A stretch of 35,984 nucleotides of DNA from positions 1 to 35,984 of IMG/VR virus record IMGVR_UViG_3300028920_000170. One strand, 5' to 3'. Below, piece after piece: positions 12 to 8,470 of this stretch. The notes under the pieces were generated by a model. The model saw only the letters and a list, made by a program, of their open reading frames with translations. It was not told the origin of the DNA and made no database searches. A program made the position numbers and the translations under genes. This DNA comes from a virus. Position 1 is the stretch's first letter; every line of letters begins with the position of its first letter.

Positions 12-113
12 AGAATTAAAGAAGTACTTACAGAAAACAAGGAAATTATAAAAACAGTGGTATACGAAACGATTCGAGAACTACAGGCAAAAAGTAAAAC
101 AAAAGCGCAATAG
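12..113 (+). CDS. C-terminal fragment of an unknown protein
   Basis: An open frame runs from the left edge to a TAG at 111-113, giving about 33 residues that end in a lysine-rich tail (QAKSKTKAQ). The fragment is helical and charged, with no recognisable motif. Its stop codon lies inside the hairpin of the terminator at 101-128, a compact arrangement that supports this being the true end of a gene. The upstream part is missing because the contig begins here. No function can be assigned. Confidence 0.55.
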   Translation, partial: RIKEVLTENKEIIKTVVYETIRELQAKSKTKAQ

Positions 114-128
114 TAATTGCGCTTTTTT
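101..128 (+). terminator. Intrinsic terminator after the partial gene
   Basis: A perfect 7-bp stem, GCGCAAT (105-111) with ATTGCGC (116-122), has a 4-base loop, is flanked by AAAA before and is followed by a run of six T. It ends the partial upstream gene, and the GTATTTAT motif at 141 follows only 13 bases later. Confidence 0.85.
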
Positions 129-168: not shown

Positions 169-3100
169 ATGAAATATGACGAATTCTTAGATTTCTTAAA
201 ATATTTTGAAGAAATAAAATCTTTCGCTGGAAAATTTAGAAGTGCAAATGAGAACTTAACTAGAATCGGTAGTGGTTCTGGTCGAATTGTGTTTGATATT
301 GACGGTGATAAAGTATTTAAGTTAGCAAAAAATCAAAAAGGTGTTGCACAGAATGAAGCCGAAATTAATATCGGTACTGATTACTATGCACAAAGCATTG
401 TAACTAAAGTATATGAATATGCAGATAACTATTTTTGGATTATCGCTGAGAAGGCGAAAAAGGTTAGTGAAAAAAGAATTAAAGAACTTACAGGTATTCC
501 AAGTTTAAATCAATTATATCAATATTTAAAAAATTTTGAAAGCGAAAATAAAGGTGGTAGAGCAATTTTTAGTATTGAATCAAGTGTTAAAGAATCACTT
601 GATGAAAACGAATTTATTCATGATTTACTCGATTTAATGAACAATTATAACGTTATTTCAGGTGATTTAGGTAGACCTAGTAGTTATGGTGAAGTACTAC
701 GTGATGGACAACCAACTATTGTTGTTACCGATTATGGTTTAAGTGATGAAGTATATAATACACACTATAGTCCAGAAAGAAAGCAACCTTATAGAATGTA
801 TGAATTATATAATTTTGCTGACGGAAATGATGATATACTATCTGATATTGGAAATACTGATGTTGTTAGGCAGGGAATGTGGGCATTAATGCCACAAGGT
901 GTTGGTGATGGTGATGAACCAATGGACGATGAATTTATATCATATGTTCAAGAAAGAAATAAATATCCAAATAAATCCATATCAAACCTAGCATTTTTAA
1001 ACGATAAATTTCATGAATGTGTTAATAATTTAAAAGAAACATTAAATCGTACTAGTGATAAGAAAAAATTCTATAATAATTTATTAGCACTTCAAGAATA
1101 TTTAATATCTCAAGGTGTTTATGATAGAGAAAAAATTGAACTTCAAGAATATGTAATTAATGAACAAGATGCTGAAATACCAAACGTAAAACGATTTTCA
1201 TTGGATGATAAAGAGTATGCTACGCAATTAGTAAATGCTGCGGTAAGTAAATTAGGATTAAAAGTAGTTAAATATCTTGGTGGTGGTTCAAACGGATTTG
1301 CATTTGATATTGGTAATGGTAAAGTATTTAAAATATCAACCGATATTGGTGAAGCAGATGCAGCATCAAAATTATTAAGAGAAAAACCAGTAAGAATTGC
1401 AACGGTTTATAATTTATATAAAATTGTTGATACTGAAAAAAATTTATCATATTTTGGTATTATTGAAGAAAACATTGAAAATAAACCCAAAGATTTATTT
1501 TTTCAATATCATAGAATAATTAATACAATTAAACCCAATAATATGGCAATTGTCGATTTCTTTATTTTAATGAAGAAAATGGATTTTAATTACGATAATT
1601 TAGTACAATTAGCAGAGGGCATTTTAAATCAAAATCCTGATGCAAATATTTCACCTGAATTAAGGCAAGAAGCATATAATTATTTAATTGGTTTACTTGA
1701 AATCAAAAAAGAATTGGTTAGTTATAATATAAAATCAAATGATTATAGCAATCCAGAAAATTTGGGATATAGCAATGGTGTTTTAAAATATTTTGATTTT
1801 GGTGCATATCGTGCAGATGAACCCAACGTTGATAATAATGTCATTATGTTACCTGAAAATGTTGAAACTATTAATGAGGTTTATGAGAGAGAAATTGCTG
1901 ATAGTATTGCTAATCAAATTGCAACTAAATTTAATTTAAGTAAACCAGTATATATTTCAGGTGGTACTGTTGGTGTTGCATATGATATTGGAAATGATAA
2001 GGTGTTGAAGATTACTAAAGATAATAGCGAAGCGAGTGAAAATCAAATGTTAATTGGTAAACAATTGAACTATATTGCAGAACCATATAGAGTTTTACAA
2101 ATATCATCAAAAAATACTAGTATTCCAAACACATATGCAATAATATTAGAAAAATTAAAAACAAGTCCTGAGATTGAAAGACTTTATAATCGTTTAAACT
2201 ATGTGTTTGGAAGTATATTAGATGTTAAAGTATCTGATGTTGTTGAAGAATATCTTGGATATGGTGATGAAAGTGTTGACAGAGAAAAGGTTGATGCTTA
2301 TTTAAGAAAAAATCCACAAGACGCTAAATTTTTTAATGGATTAGTTAATATTGCTAAAGAAGCGCAGGGTTTTGGTATTGAAAGCCTAGATTTTTATAAT
2401 TGGAGAAATTTAGGGTATAAGAAAAATGGTGCGTTGGGTTTTTTTGATGTTGGATTTGGAAATGGATTTTTACAACCACATGGTGCAGAAACATTGGAAG
2501 TCGCTGAAAATTTTGGTGGTTCATCGTTATACTCAACAACAAATACAATAGGTAGTGATGATACTCCGACATATAATCAGAACGATACTTCACCACTAAC
2601 CGATAATAATATACCAACAAGTATTGATGATTTAAACGAAAGACAACTTTCTTCAATGAAAGGTAGTAGTACTGTTGAGGTAAAAAAAAAGTGTAGATTA
2701 GGAGGATTAGGTAATACGAGTGCTGCTTGTAATCAAGGGGATATAAACAATTTAATAATTAAATCAATTAATGAAGAAATTGATGCTAGTGAAGCATATA
2801 CCACTAGTGGTGCAATAAATGCTATGATTGATGGTAAAAAGGATGTGGGTTTATTTCATTTTAAATATAATGATGGTTTAAAGGAAAAATTGATTAAGTT
2901 GGATTTTGGTTTAATAAAAATTGAACAAAATAACCATAATGTTGATATGAATATTGTTTATCGTAAAACAAATAGAGGTATACAAAATGCACAACGATTA
3001 TATAATATAATGAAAAGTATGGGTGGTTATGTTAGTGATGAAACACCTAAAGAAGCATATGAAATTGGTAAATTGTTAGATTATTCAGAAAAATCGATAT

Positions 3101-4380
3101 TAAAATATATAAATAGAATATATATTAAAGAAAAAAATGGTACTTTTAGGCGCAGAAACAATGATGAATTGAAACAGTATGATATGAAAAGTATTGATGT
3201 AATTAATGAAGCAAATATTTATGCATTAAGTGAATTACCTTTTAAAGAAGAAGTTCAACAACTTGGTGGTAAGATTTATAGTGTTGGTGGTGCAGTGCGT
3301 GATGAATTTTTAGGTAAAGAATCTAAAGATTTGGATATTCTTATTTCAGGTATTCCAATGGATAAACTAGAAGAAATATTATCAAAATATGGTCGTGTTG
3401 ATGCAGTTGGTAAATCTTTCGGTATATTAAAATTCAAACCAGAAGGTAGTACTGAGGATATTGATATTGCAATTCCTAGAACAGAAAAACCTACTGGTGA
3501 AGGTGGACATAAGGGTTTTGAAGTTAGTTCAAGTCATGAATTACCAATTGAGAAAGACCTTGAGAGAAGGGATTTTACTATCAATGCAATTGCAAAAGAT
3601 GTTGATGGCAATATCATTGACCCATTTGGTGGTCAGAACGACCTTCAAAATAAAATAATTCGAATTGTAAATCCAGAAGCATTTAGTGATGACCCATTAA
3701 GAATGCTGAGAGCAATACAGTTCGCAAGTCGTTTTGGTTTTAAAATAGAATCAAAAACAATGAAAATGATTCAAGATAATGCAAGTAGAATTAAAGAAAT
3801 ACCACCTGAAAGAATATTGACAGAATTCGATAAAATTGTCAAAAAGGGTAATATGTTGACAGGTGCATTTCTATTAAAACAAACTGGATTACTTAAAAAT
3901 ATATTCGGTAAAGATTCGGGAATATTAGTAGGACAAAATGTTTGGGAAAACGTTAAAACGATGGGTGAATTTATTTATCTACTTTCACATAATCTTGTTG
4001 ACAGTGCAGCAGATTTTTATAAAAATAATATGAAAGGTGATATTAATACATATAAAGAAATTAAAGCATTAGAAATTGCATTTTCTAAACAAATTAGTAA
4101 TATTGTTGAAGCAAGAGCAATTGCTCATAACATGTATTTAAATTCACCACAATCATTAAATAGTCAAATATTACCTGATATACTAAAGACAGCATGTCAA
4201 GAGTTATTAACTAATAAATATCCTAAAACAATTGGTGAACTTGCAGTAAACGGTAATGATTTAATGCAATTGGGGTTAAAAGGTAAAGAAATTGGTGATG
4301 CGTTAAAAATGATGTTAATTAAAATATATTCAGATAAAATAAGAAATAATAAAAATGAATTACTATTATTAATTCAATAG
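169..4380 (+). CDS. Triple kinase-like repeats fused to CCA-type tRNA nucleotidyltransferase
   Basis: The 1403-residue protein has three divergent kinase-like units. Each has a glycine-rich loop, a VxK lysine and a DFG-like triplet: unit 1 G34-G38, K51, D188-Y-G; unit 2 G371-G376, K388, D543-F-G; unit 3 G598-G602, K614, D760-V-G. Units 2 and 3 also share a D(x5)N-L-G element like a catalytic loop. A linker at about 840-1020 contains CRLGGLG and CNQGDI and is unrecognised. Residues from about 1022 form a full class II CCA-adding/poly(A) polymerase enzyme: G1040-G-A-V-R-D, the metal pair D1054/D1056, RRDFTINA around D1135, DDPLRMLRA, and a C-terminal helical tail. That family adds or repairs the tRNA 3' CCA. 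The kinase-like units may be pseudokinases or small-molecule kinases; activity is not predictable. The start is the first ATG after the late-type motif at 141. It heads an accessory block of probable polyvalent proteins. Confidence 0.85.
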   Translation: MKYDEFLDFLKYFEEIKSFAGKFRSANENLTRIGSGSGRIVFDIDGDKVFKLAKNQKGVAQNEAEINIGTDYYAQSIVTKVYEYADNYFWIIAEKAKKVSEKRIKELTGIPSLNQLYQYLKNFESENKGGRAIFSIESSVKESLDENEFIHDLLDLMNNYNVISGDLGRPSSYGEVLRDGQPTIVVTDYGLSDEVYNTHYSPERKQPYRMYELYNFADGNDDILSDIGNTDVVRQGMWALMPQGVGDGDEPMDDEFISYVQERNKYPNKSISNLAFLNDKFHECVNNLKETLNRTSDKKKFYNNLLALQEYLISQGVYDREKIELQEYVINEQDAEIPNVKRFSLDDKEYATQLVNAAVSKLGLKVVKYLGGGSNGFAFDIGNGKVFKISTDIGEADAASKLLREKPVRIATVYNLYKIVDTEKNLSYFGIIEENIENKPKDLFFQYHRIINTIKPNNMAIVDFFILMKKMDFNYDNLVQLAEGILNQNPDANISPELRQEAYNYLIGLLEIKKELVSYNIKSNDYSNPENLGYSNGVLKYFDFGAYRADEPNVDNNVIMLPENVETINEVYEREIADSIANQIATKFNLSKPVYISGGTVGVAYDIGNDKVLKITKDNSEASENQMLIGKQLNYIAEPYRVLQISSKNTSIPNTYAIILEKLKTSPEIERLYNRLNYVFGSILDVKVSDVVEEYLGYGDESVDREKVDAYLRKNPQDAKFFNGLVNIAKEAQGFGIESLDFYNWRNLGYKKNGALGFFDVGFGNGFLQPHGAETLEVAENFGGSSLYSTTNTIGSDDTPTYNQNDTSPLTDNNIPTSIDDLNERQLSSMKGSSTVEVKKKCRLGGLGNTSAACNQGDINNLIIKSINEEIDASEAYTTSGAINAMIDGKKDVGLFHFKYNDGLKEKLIKLDFGLIKIEQNNHNVDMNIVYRKTNRGIQNAQRLYNIMKSMGGYVSDETPKEAYEIGKLLDYSEKSILKYINRIYIKEKNGTFRRRNNDELKQYDMKSIDVINEANIYALSELPFKEEVQQLGGKIYSVGGAVRDEFLGKESKDLDILISGIPMDKLEEILSKYGRVDAVGKSFGILKFKPEGSTEDIDIAIPRTEKPTGEGGHKGFEVSSSHELPIEKDLERRDFTINAIAKDVDGNIIDPFGGQNDLQNKIIRIVNPEAFSDDPLRMLRAIQFASRFGFKIESKTMKMIQDNASRIKEIPPERILTEFDKIVKKGNMLTGAFLLKQTGLLKNIFGKDSGILVGQNVWENVKTMGEFIYLLSHNLVDSAADFYKNNMKGDINTYKEIKALEIAFSKQISNIVEARAIAHNMYLNSPQSLNSQILPDILKTACQELLTNKYPKTIGELAVNGNDLMQLGLKGKEIGDALKMMLIKIYSDKIRNNKNELLLLIQ

Positions 4381-4440: not shown

Positions 4441-4626
4441 ATGGAAAAGGCAAAATTGTTAACACCTATGGATATTGCTAAACTGTTAGGTGTTGAAAAT
4501 GAGTATCGTGAAGAAGTACTCATTGAGCAGGAACTTAAAATTACTCGTGAAAATTTTATGAACGAAGAAATTGAACCTGAGGAAAATAATTGTATTAACG
4601 GTAGTATTAATCATGAACAATCTTAA
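4441..4626 (+). CDS. Small protein with the TPMDIAK element
   Basis: This 61-residue acidic ORF carries TPMDIAKLLGVENEY at residues 8-22, which matches 12 of 15 residues in the C-terminal tail of the next protein (TPMDIAKTLGVTSEY). The DNA is also close, including an identical stretch ATGGATATTGCTAAA. It may be a stand-alone copy of a tag or adaptor, or a remnant of a duplicated gene end. The ATG at 4441 sits immediately after the putative promoter at 4432; the in-frame ATG at 4468 is an alternative start that would keep only part of the element. It overlaps the following gene by 14 bases, suggesting coupled translation. Function unknown. Confidence 0.6.
   Translation: MEKAKLLTPMDIAKLLGVENEYREEVLIEQELKITRENFMNEEIEPEENNCINGSINHEQS
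4462..4506 (+). repeat. TPMDIAK element, copy 1
   Basis: A 45-base segment encoding 15 residues is repeated, with three residue changes, at 6011-6055. The copy here is near the N-terminus of a 61-residue ORF; the other is near the C-terminus of the ArdC-like protein. Both are followed about 15-20 residues later by an ENF tripeptide. Confidence 0.7.
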
Positions 4627-6127
4627 TGAAGCATTTAAAGTTAGTAAAAGGTATGATTTAAAGGGTAACCCAATAGCATATATTGACCCAAATATTCCTG
4701 AGAATAAGGAAACTTTTAAATATAAAGATGTTTTTAAAAAATATGGTGCAAAATGGAGTCCAGATAGTAAATATTGGTTTTGGTATATTGGTAAAACAAA
4801 AGACCAGTGGCAGAACGTATACAATAAATTTATTGAACCCGCATTAAGAGAAGTACATAGATTAGAGGGTGCACCAGAAGAAGAAAGTAAAGAATCATTA
4901 GTTGCATCATTAGATACTGTTATTGGTGAAATACAAGCAACACCAACTTCAGAAAATGGTGAAGAGGGAATAACATCGGAAGAAAAAAAGGATGTTGTTG
5001 ATAGATTAGCAAAATTTAAAGAAACACTTGTTAATCTTGATAATGATGAAGAATTTAAGAAAACAATGCAAATTATTACAGCATTTAAAAATTCACAAGG
5101 ACACAGATATAGTTTTGCAAACACAATATTAATTTGGCTTCAAAATCCTGAAGCAAAAATGGTTAAAAGTGAAATAAATTGGGCAAAATTTAATAGAAGA
5201 ATTGTTGATAAATCAAAAAGAATGATTGTTCGTTCTCCAGCAAAAAGTGCTTTAAGAAAATATAGTAAAGACCAAGAAAAACAAATTATTGCAAATTTCT
5301 TACAATCGGTTGGTAAAAAGAATTATGATGAGTTATCTGCTGGCGAAAAAGAAAGATTAAGTATTATTTTACGTGGTAAATTAGTTAGACGTGAATTTGA
5401 ATTCACCCCAGTTTATGATGTATCAAATACGGAACAAATTGAGGGTAAAGAAGATTTACTTGGTGATTACGAAAAATACGGTCAAATCAAGTGGTTTGAA
5501 GATAATATGTTAAGTGATGAAGTACGACCAATCTATGGTGCATTAACAAAATTTGCTGAAGAAAACGGAATTTCAATTAATTTAGTTGATGATTTAGGTG
5601 GTTCAAGGGGAGTGAGTAAAAGTGGAACAATTGATTTATTGAAAAGTGAGGGTAATGATGTTGGTATTACAAAAACTCTTGCACACGAAATTAGCCATGA
5701 ACTACTACATCAAAAATATTTAAAAAATAAAAATTCGAAATACGCACAATATTTTGTTGGAACATCAGAAGGTCGTGATTTGGTTGAACAACAAGCAGAA
5801 TTATCGGCATGGATGGTAATGGCATCATATGGTTTTGATTTAAAAACAACATCATTAAACTATGTTGCTATTTGGGGTGCAGATAAAGATGCAATGATTA
5901 GGGTTTTTGATACGGTTACTGGTGTTGTAAATCTATTACTTGATTACATTAATGGTCAAATTGGTAATATTAATGAAGTTGAGGGTGAAATAAGACCTGC
6001 AAAACACATTACACCAATGGATATTGCTAAAACATTAGGTGTTACTAGTGAATATCAACAAGTATTAAATCAGTCAAAAGACGGATTAAATGAAAATTTT
6101 TATGGTTTACTAAAAAGAATTAGTTAA
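4613..6127 (+). CDS. ArdC-like antirestriction protein with zincin metallopeptidase domain
   Basis: I start this gene at ATG 4613 (504 residues); the longer frame from 4571 uses TTG. Residues 33-57 (YGAKWSPDSKYWFWYIG) resemble small DUF5710-type modules. Residues about 150-220 (FANTILIWLQNPEA, then INWAKFNRRIVDKSKRMIV) match the ArdC N-terminal ssDNA-binding domain. A zincin follows: H358-E-I-S-H362 with E396 in the downstream QQAE segment as likely third ligand, then the characteristic YGFD and WG stretches. Family knowledge: ArdC-type proteins protect incoming plasmid or phage DNA from restriction, and such domains recur in injected polyvalent proteins. The C-terminus carries the second TPMDIAK element. 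It overlaps the gene before it by 14 bases and the next gene by one base (TAATG), so it is part of an operon. Confidence 0.85.
   Translation: MNNLNEAFKVSKRYDLKGNPIAYIDPNIPENKETFKYKDVFKKYGAKWSPDSKYWFWYIGKTKDQWQNVYNKFIEPALREVHRLEGAPEEESKESLVASLDTVIGEIQATPTSENGEEGITSEEKKDVVDRLAKFKETLVNLDNDEEFKKTMQIITAFKNSQGHRYSFANTILIWLQNPEAKMVKSEINWAKFNRRIVDKSKRMIVRSPAKSALRKYSKDQEKQIIANFLQSVGKKNYDELSAGEKERLSIILRGKLVRREFEFTPVYDVSNTEQIEGKEDLLGDYEKYGQIKWFEDNMLSDEVRPIYGALTKFAEENGISINLVDDLGGSRGVSKSGTIDLLKSEGNDVGITKTLAHEISHELLHQKYLKNKNSKYAQYFVGTSEGRDLVEQQAELSAWMVMASYGFDLKTTSLNYVAIWGADKDAMIRVFDTVTGVVNLLLDYINGQIGNINEVEGEIRPAKHITPMDIAKTLGVTSEYQQVLNQSKDGLNENFYGLLKRIS
6011..6055 (+). repeat. TPMDIAK element, copy 2
   Basis: Encodes residues 467-481 of the ArdC-like protein and matches 12 of 15 residues of copy 1 at 4462-4506. 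It lies beyond the zincin fold, in the last 40 residues, as expected for a tag, docking peptide or processing signal. Confidence 0.7.
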
Positions 6128-6510
6128 TGGGAAAAGTTTCTTATAGTGCTGTTGTTCTTGATGAAAAATCTCACACAAGATTAATTGAACGTTTTAAAGA
6201 TATAATACCTGAAGGTTTTGAGATTATTGCACATCACATGACAATAAATTTGGGTGAAATAAATCCTGAATATGAAAAATATTTAGGAATGCCAATTCGA
6301 TTAAGTGTTAATGATATTGCAATGGATGATAAAGTAATTGCCGTTGGTGTTAATGGTTTTTATAGTAAAAATAGTAAACCACACATTACTTTAGCGGTTA
6401 ATCGTAAAGCGGGTGGTAAACCAGTAATGTCAAATTATTTAACAAATTGGCAAAGTTTAAAAAGACCATTGTTAATATCTGGAAAAGTAACAGAAGTAGA
6501 ATATAAATAA
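6127..6510 (+). CDS. 2H phosphoesterase-like protein
   Basis: 127 residues with the two HxT motifs that define the 2H phosphoesterase fold: H37-M-T39 (IIAHHMTINLG) and H86-I-T88 (SKPHITLAV), each inside a predicted beta strand and about 50 residues apart. Characterised members open 2',3'-cyclic phosphates or cleave 2'-5' bonds in RNA ends or nucleotide signals, so substrates could be cleaved tRNA ends or cyclic oligonucleotide signals; the sequence does not decide. The gene starts at an ATG sharing one base with the stop of the ArdC-like gene, and is followed 7 bases later by a HAD phosphatase, a natural partner for removing the phosphate left by a cyclic phosphodiesterase. Confidence 0.75.
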   Translation: MGKVSYSAVVLDEKSHTRLIERFKDIIPEGFEIIAHHMTINLGEINPEYEKYLGMPIRLSVNDIAMDDKVIAVGVNGFYSKNSKPHITLAVNRKAGGKPVMSNYLTNWQSLKRPLLISGKVTEVEYK

Positions 6511-6517
6511 ATAATTT

Positions 6518-7087
6518 ATGGTTAAAAGATTAATAGTATTTGATTTTGATGGAACACTTATCAATTCACCAGAATCTGAAGAGGGTAAGAAAATTTGGTT
6601 ACAAACTAAGGGTGAAGAATATCCACATTTAGGTTGGTGGGGTAGACCAGAAAGTTTAGATTTAAACGTATTTGATATTAAACCTTTTCCAAGTGTATTG
6701 TTACAATTAAAAAAAGAATTAGTAACGCCTAATACCTATGTGATTATACTTACATCACGTATGGAAAAATTACGTCCATATGTTCAAGCAGTACTAGATA
6801 AAAATGGTATTGTTGTTGATAAACTAGACATGAAACGTGCTGAAGGTGATAAAGGTGTTAAAATACTTCGTTACTTTAAGCAATTTCCAGAATTAAAAAC
6901 TATTTGTGTATATGATGACCGTGAATCAGATATACAATCATATGAAAATATAAGAACTCAAATACCAGAAGAAATTGAGTTTAATATTTATCGTGCTAAT
7001 GAAGGTAAATTGGCATTAACCGAATCAAGTCGAAAACAAAATATGTTGGAAATTATTATTGATGAAATTAAAAAAATAAATTTATAG
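6518..7087 (+). CDS. HAD-superfamily phosphatase, RNA-repair (SAK) type
   Basis: 189 residues with the HAD motifs: FDFDGTL (D9 nucleophile, D11), the motif II segment IILTSR, and the acidic motif IV VYDDRESD (D133-D134). The overall pattern, with GWWGRP early on, resembles the Swiss-Army-Knife RNA repair HAD family. Such enzymes are thought to remove 2' or 3' phosphates from RNA ends; a nucleotide phosphatase is the main alternative. It follows the 2H phosphoesterase by 7 bases and lies two genes after a CCA-adding enzyme, a context that favours RNA 3'-end healing. The last bases overlap the late-type motif at 7087. Confidence 0.8.
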   Translation: MVKRLIVFDFDGTLINSPESEEGKKIWLQTKGEEYPHLGWWGRPESLDLNVFDIKPFPSVLLQLKKELVTPNTYVIILTSRMEKLRPYVQAVLDKNGIVVDKLDMKRAEGDKGVKILRYFKQFPELKTICVYDDRESDIQSYENIRTQIPEEIEFNIYRANEGKLALTESSRKQNMLEIIIDEIKKINL

Positions 7088-7094
7088 TATTTAT
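7087..7094 (+). promoter_or_regulatory. Putative late promoter before ParB/ART gene
   Basis: GTATTTAT begins on the last base of the HAD phosphatase stop codon and lies 23 bases (from its G) before the ATG at 7110. The spacing is close to that at 12436, 22761 and 33704. Confidence 0.6.
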
Positions 7095-7109
7095 GTTAAA
7101 ATTATTAAT

Positions 7110-7922
7110 ATGATTGACATGCGTTATAAACCACTCCATTTACCACAAGTTAGTGCACCATACACAATAATGTTGCAAAAACTTGATGATGAAGGTATTG
7201 GTTATGATGTGGTAGAAGTTGACCCTAATGAACTACAACCATTACAGGGTATTGTATTTAGTGATGAGGTCGGTAAAGTAAATCTTGAAGACATGAATCC
7301 AATATGGATTAGTAATGATATGGAAGTTATTGATGGTCATCATCGCATGATTCGTGCATTAATGGATAATAAGAAAAATAAAGCGGTTAAAATTCATTTA
7401 AACGGTAAAGATGCTTGTCGAATACTGAATAAAATTCAGGATATTTATGAATATGAACAAGCACAAGGAATGGAAGAAGTTGAAGTTCAAGATACAATAA
7501 ATCAATATGGTGATGATGAAAATCAATTTTTAAAAACGTTAGAAGAAGATAATATTAACATACCATCAGAAAAAGACGAAAAGAATGTAGTAACATTATA
7601 TGGATATAGAAAAGAACCAATTAAAGAAAATTCGGTAAATGGTAATTTCTTTTTATCAAATCCTGTTGATGGATATAGTAAGTATCAAATAGATTTTGAA
7701 AATTTATTTGATATGCAAGGGACTGGTGTTTCATATAAAGACGGTCAAAATCCAGTAGATATATTATCGAAGTTATGGTTTCCACATGTAAATTTTGAAA
7801 AATTAAGTAAAAATTACAATACAAATTCAGAAAATGTAAAATATAAAGCAATTGCTGAAAAAGCAAAATCTCTTGGTTATGATGGTATTAAATTAGATAC
7901 AATAATCTGGGGACTTAAATAA
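7110..7922 (+). CDS. ParB-like domain fused to ADP-ribosyltransferase-like domain
   Basis: 270 residues. The N-terminal 110 residues resemble ParB/sulfiredoxin-fold domains, with WISNDMEVIDGHHRMIRAL (D75-G-H-H-R79) as the phosphate-binding signature. The region from about 160 (VVTLYGYRKEP) to the end (AKSLGYDGIKLDT) resembles the ADP-ribosyltransferase domains seen in phage polyvalent proteins, where the YxGYR-like strand and the GYDG segment are typical. The catalytic glutamate is not obvious to me, so activity is uncertain. Known phage ADP-ribosyltransferases modify host proteins early in infection, some after injection with DNA. The gene has its own late-type motif 23 bases upstream and is followed by the repeat-tailed protein at 7944. 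Confidence 0.65.
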   Translation: MIDMRYKPLHLPQVSAPYTIMLQKLDDEGIGYDVVEVDPNELQPLQGIVFSDEVGKVNLEDMNPIWISNDMEVIDGHHRMIRALMDNKKNKAVKIHLNGKDACRILNKIQDIYEYEQAQGMEEVEVQDTINQYGDDENQFLKTLEEDNINIPSEKDEKNVVTLYGYRKEPIKENSVNGNFFLSNPVDGYSKYQIDFENLFDMQGTGVSYKDGQNPVDILSKLWFPHVNFEKLSKNYNTNSENVKYKAIAEKAKSLGYDGIKLDTIIWGLK

Positions 7923-8411: not shown

Positions 8412-8430
8412 TTATTTTATTCTTCGTATA

Positions 8431-8470
8431 AAAAGTCAATCATAATAAAAAATGATTGACTTTTTTTTTA
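8431..8470 (+). terminator. Intrinsic terminator closing the accessory operon
   Basis: A 10-bp perfect stem, AGTCAATCAT (8434-8443) with ATGATTGACT (8452-8461), has an A-rich 8-base loop and is followed by a run of eight or more T. It lies 20 bases after the stop of the preceding gene and before the GTATTTAT motif at 8508. Confidence 0.9.

Follow-up and report, generated by a model that had tools for sequence, protein, structure and literature searches.

A candidate head-packaged effector polyprotein of a large T4-like phage, with domains joined at prohead-protease-type sites

The window analysed here, i.e. the whole of IMG/VR virus record IMGVR_UViG_3300028920_000170 (35,984 bases), contains at positions 169..4380 an open reading frame (ORF) of 1403 amino acids (aa). 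This ORF probably encodes a head-packaged effector polyprotein, which a prohead protease of the T4 gp21 type would cut at short joints between the domains, the pieces being injected with the DNA. A precursor of six pieces is proposed because of the joints themselves, the exchange of domains among relatives and the prohead protease found in sister phages. A preliminary description of the same DNA had reported three kinase-like repeats, each with a glycine loop, a lysine and a DFG-like triplet, fused to a CCA-adding enzyme. These elements are all present in the ORF, and the unusual architecture is supported by the family alignment, the structure models and the fold matches; the [LIVM]NE joints, a 45-aa peptide (residues 825-869) and an NleE-like domain (residues 870-1014) had been overlooked. 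The layout is as follows (pLDDT, predicted local distance difference test score; a slash marks the proposed cutting site):

169..4380, + strand: putative effector polyprotein ORF, 1403 aa in a single open frame; about 30 non-redundant relatives in IMG/VR have the same build
169..768, + strand: kinase-fold unit 1, residues 1-200; conserved active-site residues, model and fold match, phrog_4301 at E=1e-12
769..1164, + strand: stretch following unit 1 (disordered and helical), residues 201-332, GNDDILSDIG..GMWALMPQGVGDG; pLDDT <50 at 192-251; conserved in the family
1156..1164, + strand: joint 1, INE/Q (E332); pLDDT <50 at 326-334
1165..1878, + strand: segment with kinase-fold unit 2, residues 333-570; invariant active-site residues
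1870..1878, + strand: joint 2, INE/V (E570); pLDDT <50 at 564-570
1879..2640, + strand: kinase-fold unit 3 and disordered tail, residues 571-824, SLYSTTNTIGSDDTPTYNQNDTSP; tail pLDDT <50
2632..2640, + strand: joint 3, LNE/R (E824)
2641..2775, + strand: 45-aa signature peptide, residues 825-869, KKKCRLGGLGNTSAACNQGDINNL
2767..2775, + strand: joint 4, INE/E (E869)
2776..3210, + strand: domain resembling the NleE cysteine-methyltransferase fold, residues 870-1014; weak profile match and PDB fold match
3202..3210, + strand: joint 5, INE/A (E1014); pLDDT <50 at 1009-1016
3211..4380, + strand: class II CCA-adding nucleotidyltransferase, residues 1015-1403; profile, motifs and fold

The relatives, found on IMG/VR contigs of up to 365 kb, range in size from 643 to 3100 aa. 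They carry the same fusion in independent contigs from many metagenomes, and for this reason a frameshift or misassembly joining separate genes, which had been named beforehand as grounds for refuting the ORF, was rejected as having practically no chance of being true. A search of viral contigs with a single full-length protein gave no match; alignments were needed as queries. Units 2-3 and the 45-aa peptide matched nothing in a phage record collection.

The distribution of the joint motif was analyzed. Five [LIVM]-N-E tripeptides occur in the ORF, ending at residues 332, 570, 824, 869 and 1014; all lie at domain joints and none inside a domain core. Cutting after each joint glutamate would release pieces of 332, 238, 254, 45, 145 and 389 aa, with one domain or peptide apiece. 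In the models, four of the five joints coincide with low-confidence linkers or adjoin them, and the pLDDT at the fifth is ~56. Over 30 non-redundant family proteins, [LIVM]NE was observed 161 times outside domain cores, compared to 49.2 +- 7.0 in shuffled sequences, the reversed EN[LIVM] being observed 55 times; the count within cores was 35 against 25. Tripeptides related to [LIVM]NE, or reversed, showed no enrichment. When a joint site was scored as a [LIVM]xE within -12..+6 of the joint, it was present before five domain families in 166 of 178 cases (42/45, 24/26, 26/26, 37/39 and 37/42), against 30-35% of random windows.

Segments are gained or lost downstream in the relatives, as follows: an ADP-ribosyltransferase (ART-PolyVal), a GNAT domain, a 2H phosphoesterase (2'-5' ligase, Acb1-like), a tRNA-ligase CPD-like segment and a ParB-like segment. 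At 30 distinct loci the 2H-like gene stands by itself, and at 26 it forms a fused polyprotein segment; among the fused segments, 24 of 26 have a joint site and 11 keep a methionine at the former start. The CCA segment is also split off as its own gene in other relatives, and CCA genes encoded alone are mostly without a [LIVM]xE joint site.

Six sister records (203-365 kb) carry head genes. All six encode a Peptidase_S77 protein which keeps the HP and SSRG motifs of T4 gp21, and its gene adjoins that of a gp23-like major capsid protein. A gp21-type protease ORF is located in L107 at 6612-7316. In all six capsid proteins, NQLS[HY]MINE/S separates the propeptide from the conserved core. This site, argued from its position between LFENQ and the conserved core, reads MINE/S, so that INE is common to the capsid proteins and to the polyprotein joints. 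In the alignment with T4 gp23 the two cutting sites are in different columns, the mature N-terminus of the sister proteins being shorter. T4 gp21 cleaves after L/I-X-E, and the T4 internal head proteins and Alt are packed into the prohead, cut by gp21 after this motif and injected, Alt then acting on host RNA polymerase (PMC9026906). L/I-x-E sites are likewise found at the borders of the polyprotein domains. The T4 proteins are each a single cargo with a removable N-terminal targeting sequence, whereas here a chain of about six pieces has internal sites and no such N-terminus.

Two further observations concern the sister records. In one of them (L105, record G002), the prohead protease is encoded by a minus-strand ORF of 642 aa with an intein-like insertion of ~400 aa between the catalytic His and Ser regions. 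Short ORFs near sister head genes carry an N-terminal tag like KQRLFEVMxKVNPxFKxxLNE (L104, 1857-2519, minus strand; L105, 378-1103, minus strand; L107, 16571-18587), which in one case precedes a P-loop kinase; these are possible capsid-targeting tags. A general N-terminal tag rule was rejected: the first 20 residues of other ORFs are only slightly richer in [LIVM]NE than the bulk (3.8 vs 2.9 per 1000 aa).

Several points weigh against a packaged and cut polyprotein. The domains, the joints, the family, and the protease and capsid sites of the sister phages are seen in the sequences; from this pattern we infer packaging, cleavage, injection, enzyme activities and targets. Head genes were not found in the window contig, and the protease is taken from the sister phages. 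[LIVM]xE is a short and common motif, and in other ORFs of these phages [LIVM]NE is modestly above its reverse (2.9 vs 2.0 per 1000 aa). The joint counts are linked by descent, hence not independent, yet they are consistent across unrelated neighbours. The polyprotein lacks a T4-type capsid-targeting sequence at its N-terminus, there being no [ILV]xE before residue 81, and given this the route by which it would enter the prohead is a guess.

One may ask whether the chain goes uncut into the head and then into the host, the NE joints being mere flexible linkers. Multidomain effectors are a known kind, the polyvalent proteins. As described in the part of Iyer et al. 2017 (PMC5512222) considered here, these are likewise large multidomain chains of conflict enzymes encoded near virion genes, in phages and conjugative elements, with kinase, ADP-ribosyltransferase, GNAT and nucleotidyltransferase domains; injection is predicted for them, and the N4 virion RNA polymerase is given there as packaged unprocessed, with injection of the whole protein proposed. 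The ORF, too, is near virion genes and combines several enzyme domains of the conflict type in a single chain, and ART-PolyVal and GNAT domains, typical of the class, are present in its relatives. An uncut chain is nevertheless unlikely: linkers need no [LIVM]-N-E, reversed or related tripeptides are not enriched, and the INE/S site is also found in the sister capsid protein. The present chain differs in other respects from those in the same part of that source: its kinase units match no Pfam model, and neither a CCA-adding nor an NleE-like segment was found there.

The kinase units proper correspond to residues 1-200, 346-560 and 571-775. Their motifs are distributed as follows: in unit 1, GSGSGR (34-39), K51, E65, D166 and DYG (188-190); in unit 2, GGGSNG (371-376), K388, E395, D525-x5-N531-L-G and DFG (543-545); in unit 3, G599/G602, K614, E621, D741-x5-N747-L-G and DVG (760-762). 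The D-x5-N-L-G motif earlier noted as common to units 2 and 3 is thus D525/N531 and D741/N747. The second and third units clearly repeat each other (E = 1e-17), and the similarity of unit 1 to them covers the N-lobe only (E = 2e-4 to 2e-3). Conservation was counted in a family alignment of 25 rows. K51, E65, D166 and D188 of unit 1 are invariant (21/21), as are K388, E395, D525, N531 and D543 of unit 2 (18/18); in unit 3, K614, E621, N747 and D760 are found in 20/20 and D741 in 19/20. These invariant or near-invariant residues, i.e. the ATP-binding Lys, the helix-C Glu, the catalytic Asp, the DFG Asp and, in units 2 and 3, the Asn, suggest functional phosphotransferases, not pseudokinases that have decayed. 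The HxD histidine has no match (units 2 and 3 read S-x-D, and unit 1 is without a His), nor has the kinase D-x4-N spacing in units 2 and 3, where D-x5-N is found instead; D-x4-N is seen in some stand-alone relatives of unit 1.

Structure prediction, the check proposed for the repeats, gave a kinase fold. The AlphaFold2 model of residues 1-820 (mean pLDDT 79) has protein kinases and aminoglycoside kinases as best PDB matches (probability ~1.00), and a 216-aa myovirus protein as best viral match (template modelling score 0.72 to the target). Like other kinase-fold enzymes, the units may carry out a reaction different from protein phosphorylation. In the model they end within ~20 residues of the DFG, the lobe after it being lost as in Kinase-PolyVal; membership of that family was rejected, no Pfam match being obtained in any of the 25 family members at E<=5. 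Unit 1 is homologous to the kinase-like proteins of phrog_4301 in jumbo phages (121Q gp308, XacN1 ORF170), which are stand-alone and ~200 aa long.

The 45-aa peptide is nearly invariant, with the consensus RxxSxMxGSSTVxVKKKCRLGGLGNTSxACNQGDINNLxIKSINE and two conserved cysteines. By profile search it occurs exactly once per record in 12/12 long sister records, mostly within giant ORFs; in L132 it is inside an 84-aa ORF of its own. It is bordered by [LIVM]xE upstream in 38/40 copies and downstream in 39/40, for 37% and 17% at random. The 145-aa domain which follows (870-1014) was found in 29 copies, every one after a joint and with varied upstream neighbours. It resembles the NleE-type cysteine methyltransferases in fold and is only marginal by sequence: the predicted structure matches PDB 4r29 (probability 1.00, E=4e-3), the match to NCBIfam NF033830 is weak (E=0.0023), and Pfam NleE is matched at E=2e-5 in the downstream part of one relative. 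NleE and OspZ, with which it shares these fold and weak profile matches, are effectors of human pathogens; here the segment is a far-diverged phage one with a predicted methyltransferase function. Two disordered stretches are conserved in the family and often bounded by [LIVM]xE: 769-1164 (GNDDILSDIG..GMWALMPYGVGDG) and 2512-2631 (DGSSKFST..GQDxFPxYNxNDTSP). They are possible prohead-core binding peptides.

The profile and fold matches and the motifs of the C-terminal part are those of a complete class II CCA-adding enzyme, with predicted activity, in agreement with the intact GG-VRD and DxD noted before. Its motifs are GGAVRD (1040), DLD (1054-1056), ERRDFTINAI (1132) and DDPLR (1174); Pfam PolyA_pol is matched at E = 4e-24, and the best PDB match is a CCA-adding enzyme (E = 4e-19). 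The best NCBIfam model is PRK13299 at 169.6 bits, the curated cut-off of CCA-adding versus poly(A) enzymes being 290. The phage class II enzymes of phrog_2244 are likewise full-length with all motifs; they are usually encoded by a stand-alone gene, whereas here the enzyme is the last segment of a polyprotein.

The window comes from a large phage of the myovirus (T4-like) type: it contains baseplate wedge genes, an SbcC-like subunit, a primase and a sigma factor, all on the strand of the ORF. The host is probably a member of the Bacteroidota, as suggested by a single metagenome-assembled genome contig, possibly a binned phage. At its extreme start (positions 1-11, TCTTCCGATCT) the window retains the last bases of an Illumina adapter; this artefact of assembly or trimming lies outside the ORF. 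The operon of the ORF is located between two terminator-like hairpins, ahead of the baseplate genes, and includes the following features:

101..126, + strand: terminator-like hairpin before the operon
4613..6127, + strand: ArdC-N/zincin-like ORF of the same operon, weak hidden Markov model matches
6127..6510, + strand: 2H phosphodiesterase-like (tRNA-ligase CPD) ORF, a fused segment in 26 relatives
6518..7087, + strand: HAD phosphatase of RNA-repair (polynucleotide kinase) type
8430..8465, + strand: terminator-like hairpin after the operon

The ArdC/zincin-like ORF starts with MNNLNE/AF, and its relatives with MK(A/T)LNE/AF, i.e. with a site directly after the start. The ORF at 7110-7922 gave no profile match; by eye only, it looks like a ParB-type domain (DGHHRMIRAL) and then an ADP-ribosyltransferase-like end (AKSLGYDGIK). 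Cutting in the head or after injection by another protease, such as the product of 4613-6127, would agree with the weak MPTase-PolyVal and ArdC-N matches of that neighbour and with the part of PMC5512222 where embedded zincin peptidases are proposed to process polyvalent proteins. We consider it quite unlikely: the joints match the head-maturation protease, their motif being both that of T4 gp21 and that of the sister capsid site.

The packaged polyprotein may then be pictured as follows. It would be made late, from the terminator-bounded operon, and would enter the prohead, perhaps by means of the 45-aa signature peptide. The prohead protease would cut it after each [LIVM]NE glutamate, giving six pieces, of which those with enzyme domains would be injected together with the DNA. 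In the new host, the three kinase-fold enzymes and the methyltransferase-like enzyme may modify host proteins, and the CCA enzyme may rebuild tRNA 3' ends alongside the 2H phosphodiesterase-like and HAD phosphatase-like proteins of the operon, the substrates being tRNAs cut by host defence, a kind of repair familiar from jumbo phages (PMC7824862). The earlier idea of kinase units that modify a host factor, with RNA ends mended by the enzyme, is a reasonable guess for the separate pieces; a single working fusion enzyme is probably wrong. It is very improbable that the ORF is an unpackaged tRNA-repair and host-takeover factor made within the infected cell, for although CCA-adding enzymes of jumbo phages are interpreted as intracellular tRNA repair (PMC7824862) and the operon also includes repair genes of 2H-like and HAD-like type, this leaves unexplained both the head-protease-type joints and the mix of ADP-ribosyltransferase, GNAT and kinase domains typical of injected proteins.

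In the open literature searched, subscription journals being outside its scope, nothing was found that describes an enzyme polyprotein of a phage being cut by a prohead protease, or that links the prohead protease and internal head proteins to a polyprotein; such a joint-cut polyprotein appears undescribed there. We are somewhat inclined to a more general view, in which the injected arsenal of large Bacteroidota-type phages is made as a single polyprotein and diced in the prohead by the capsid-maturation protease at INE joints, new effectors being added by joining a gene and a cutting site. If true, this would be a phage counterpart of the polyproteins of RNA viruses. The head-maturation protease would have a second job, i.e. 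freeing host-takeover enzymes from one precursor, at a fixed ratio and in the virion, and the NleE-type methyltransferase fold would extend beyond pathogen effectors to phages. Kinase, methyltransferase, ADP-ribosyltransferase, anti-CBASS-like and tRNA-repair activities would form one delivered package. INE joints would provide a sequence rule for spotting packaged and injected proteins in uncultured large phages, and would let unknown giant phage proteins be split into testable domains; what large phages inject would then become directly testable.

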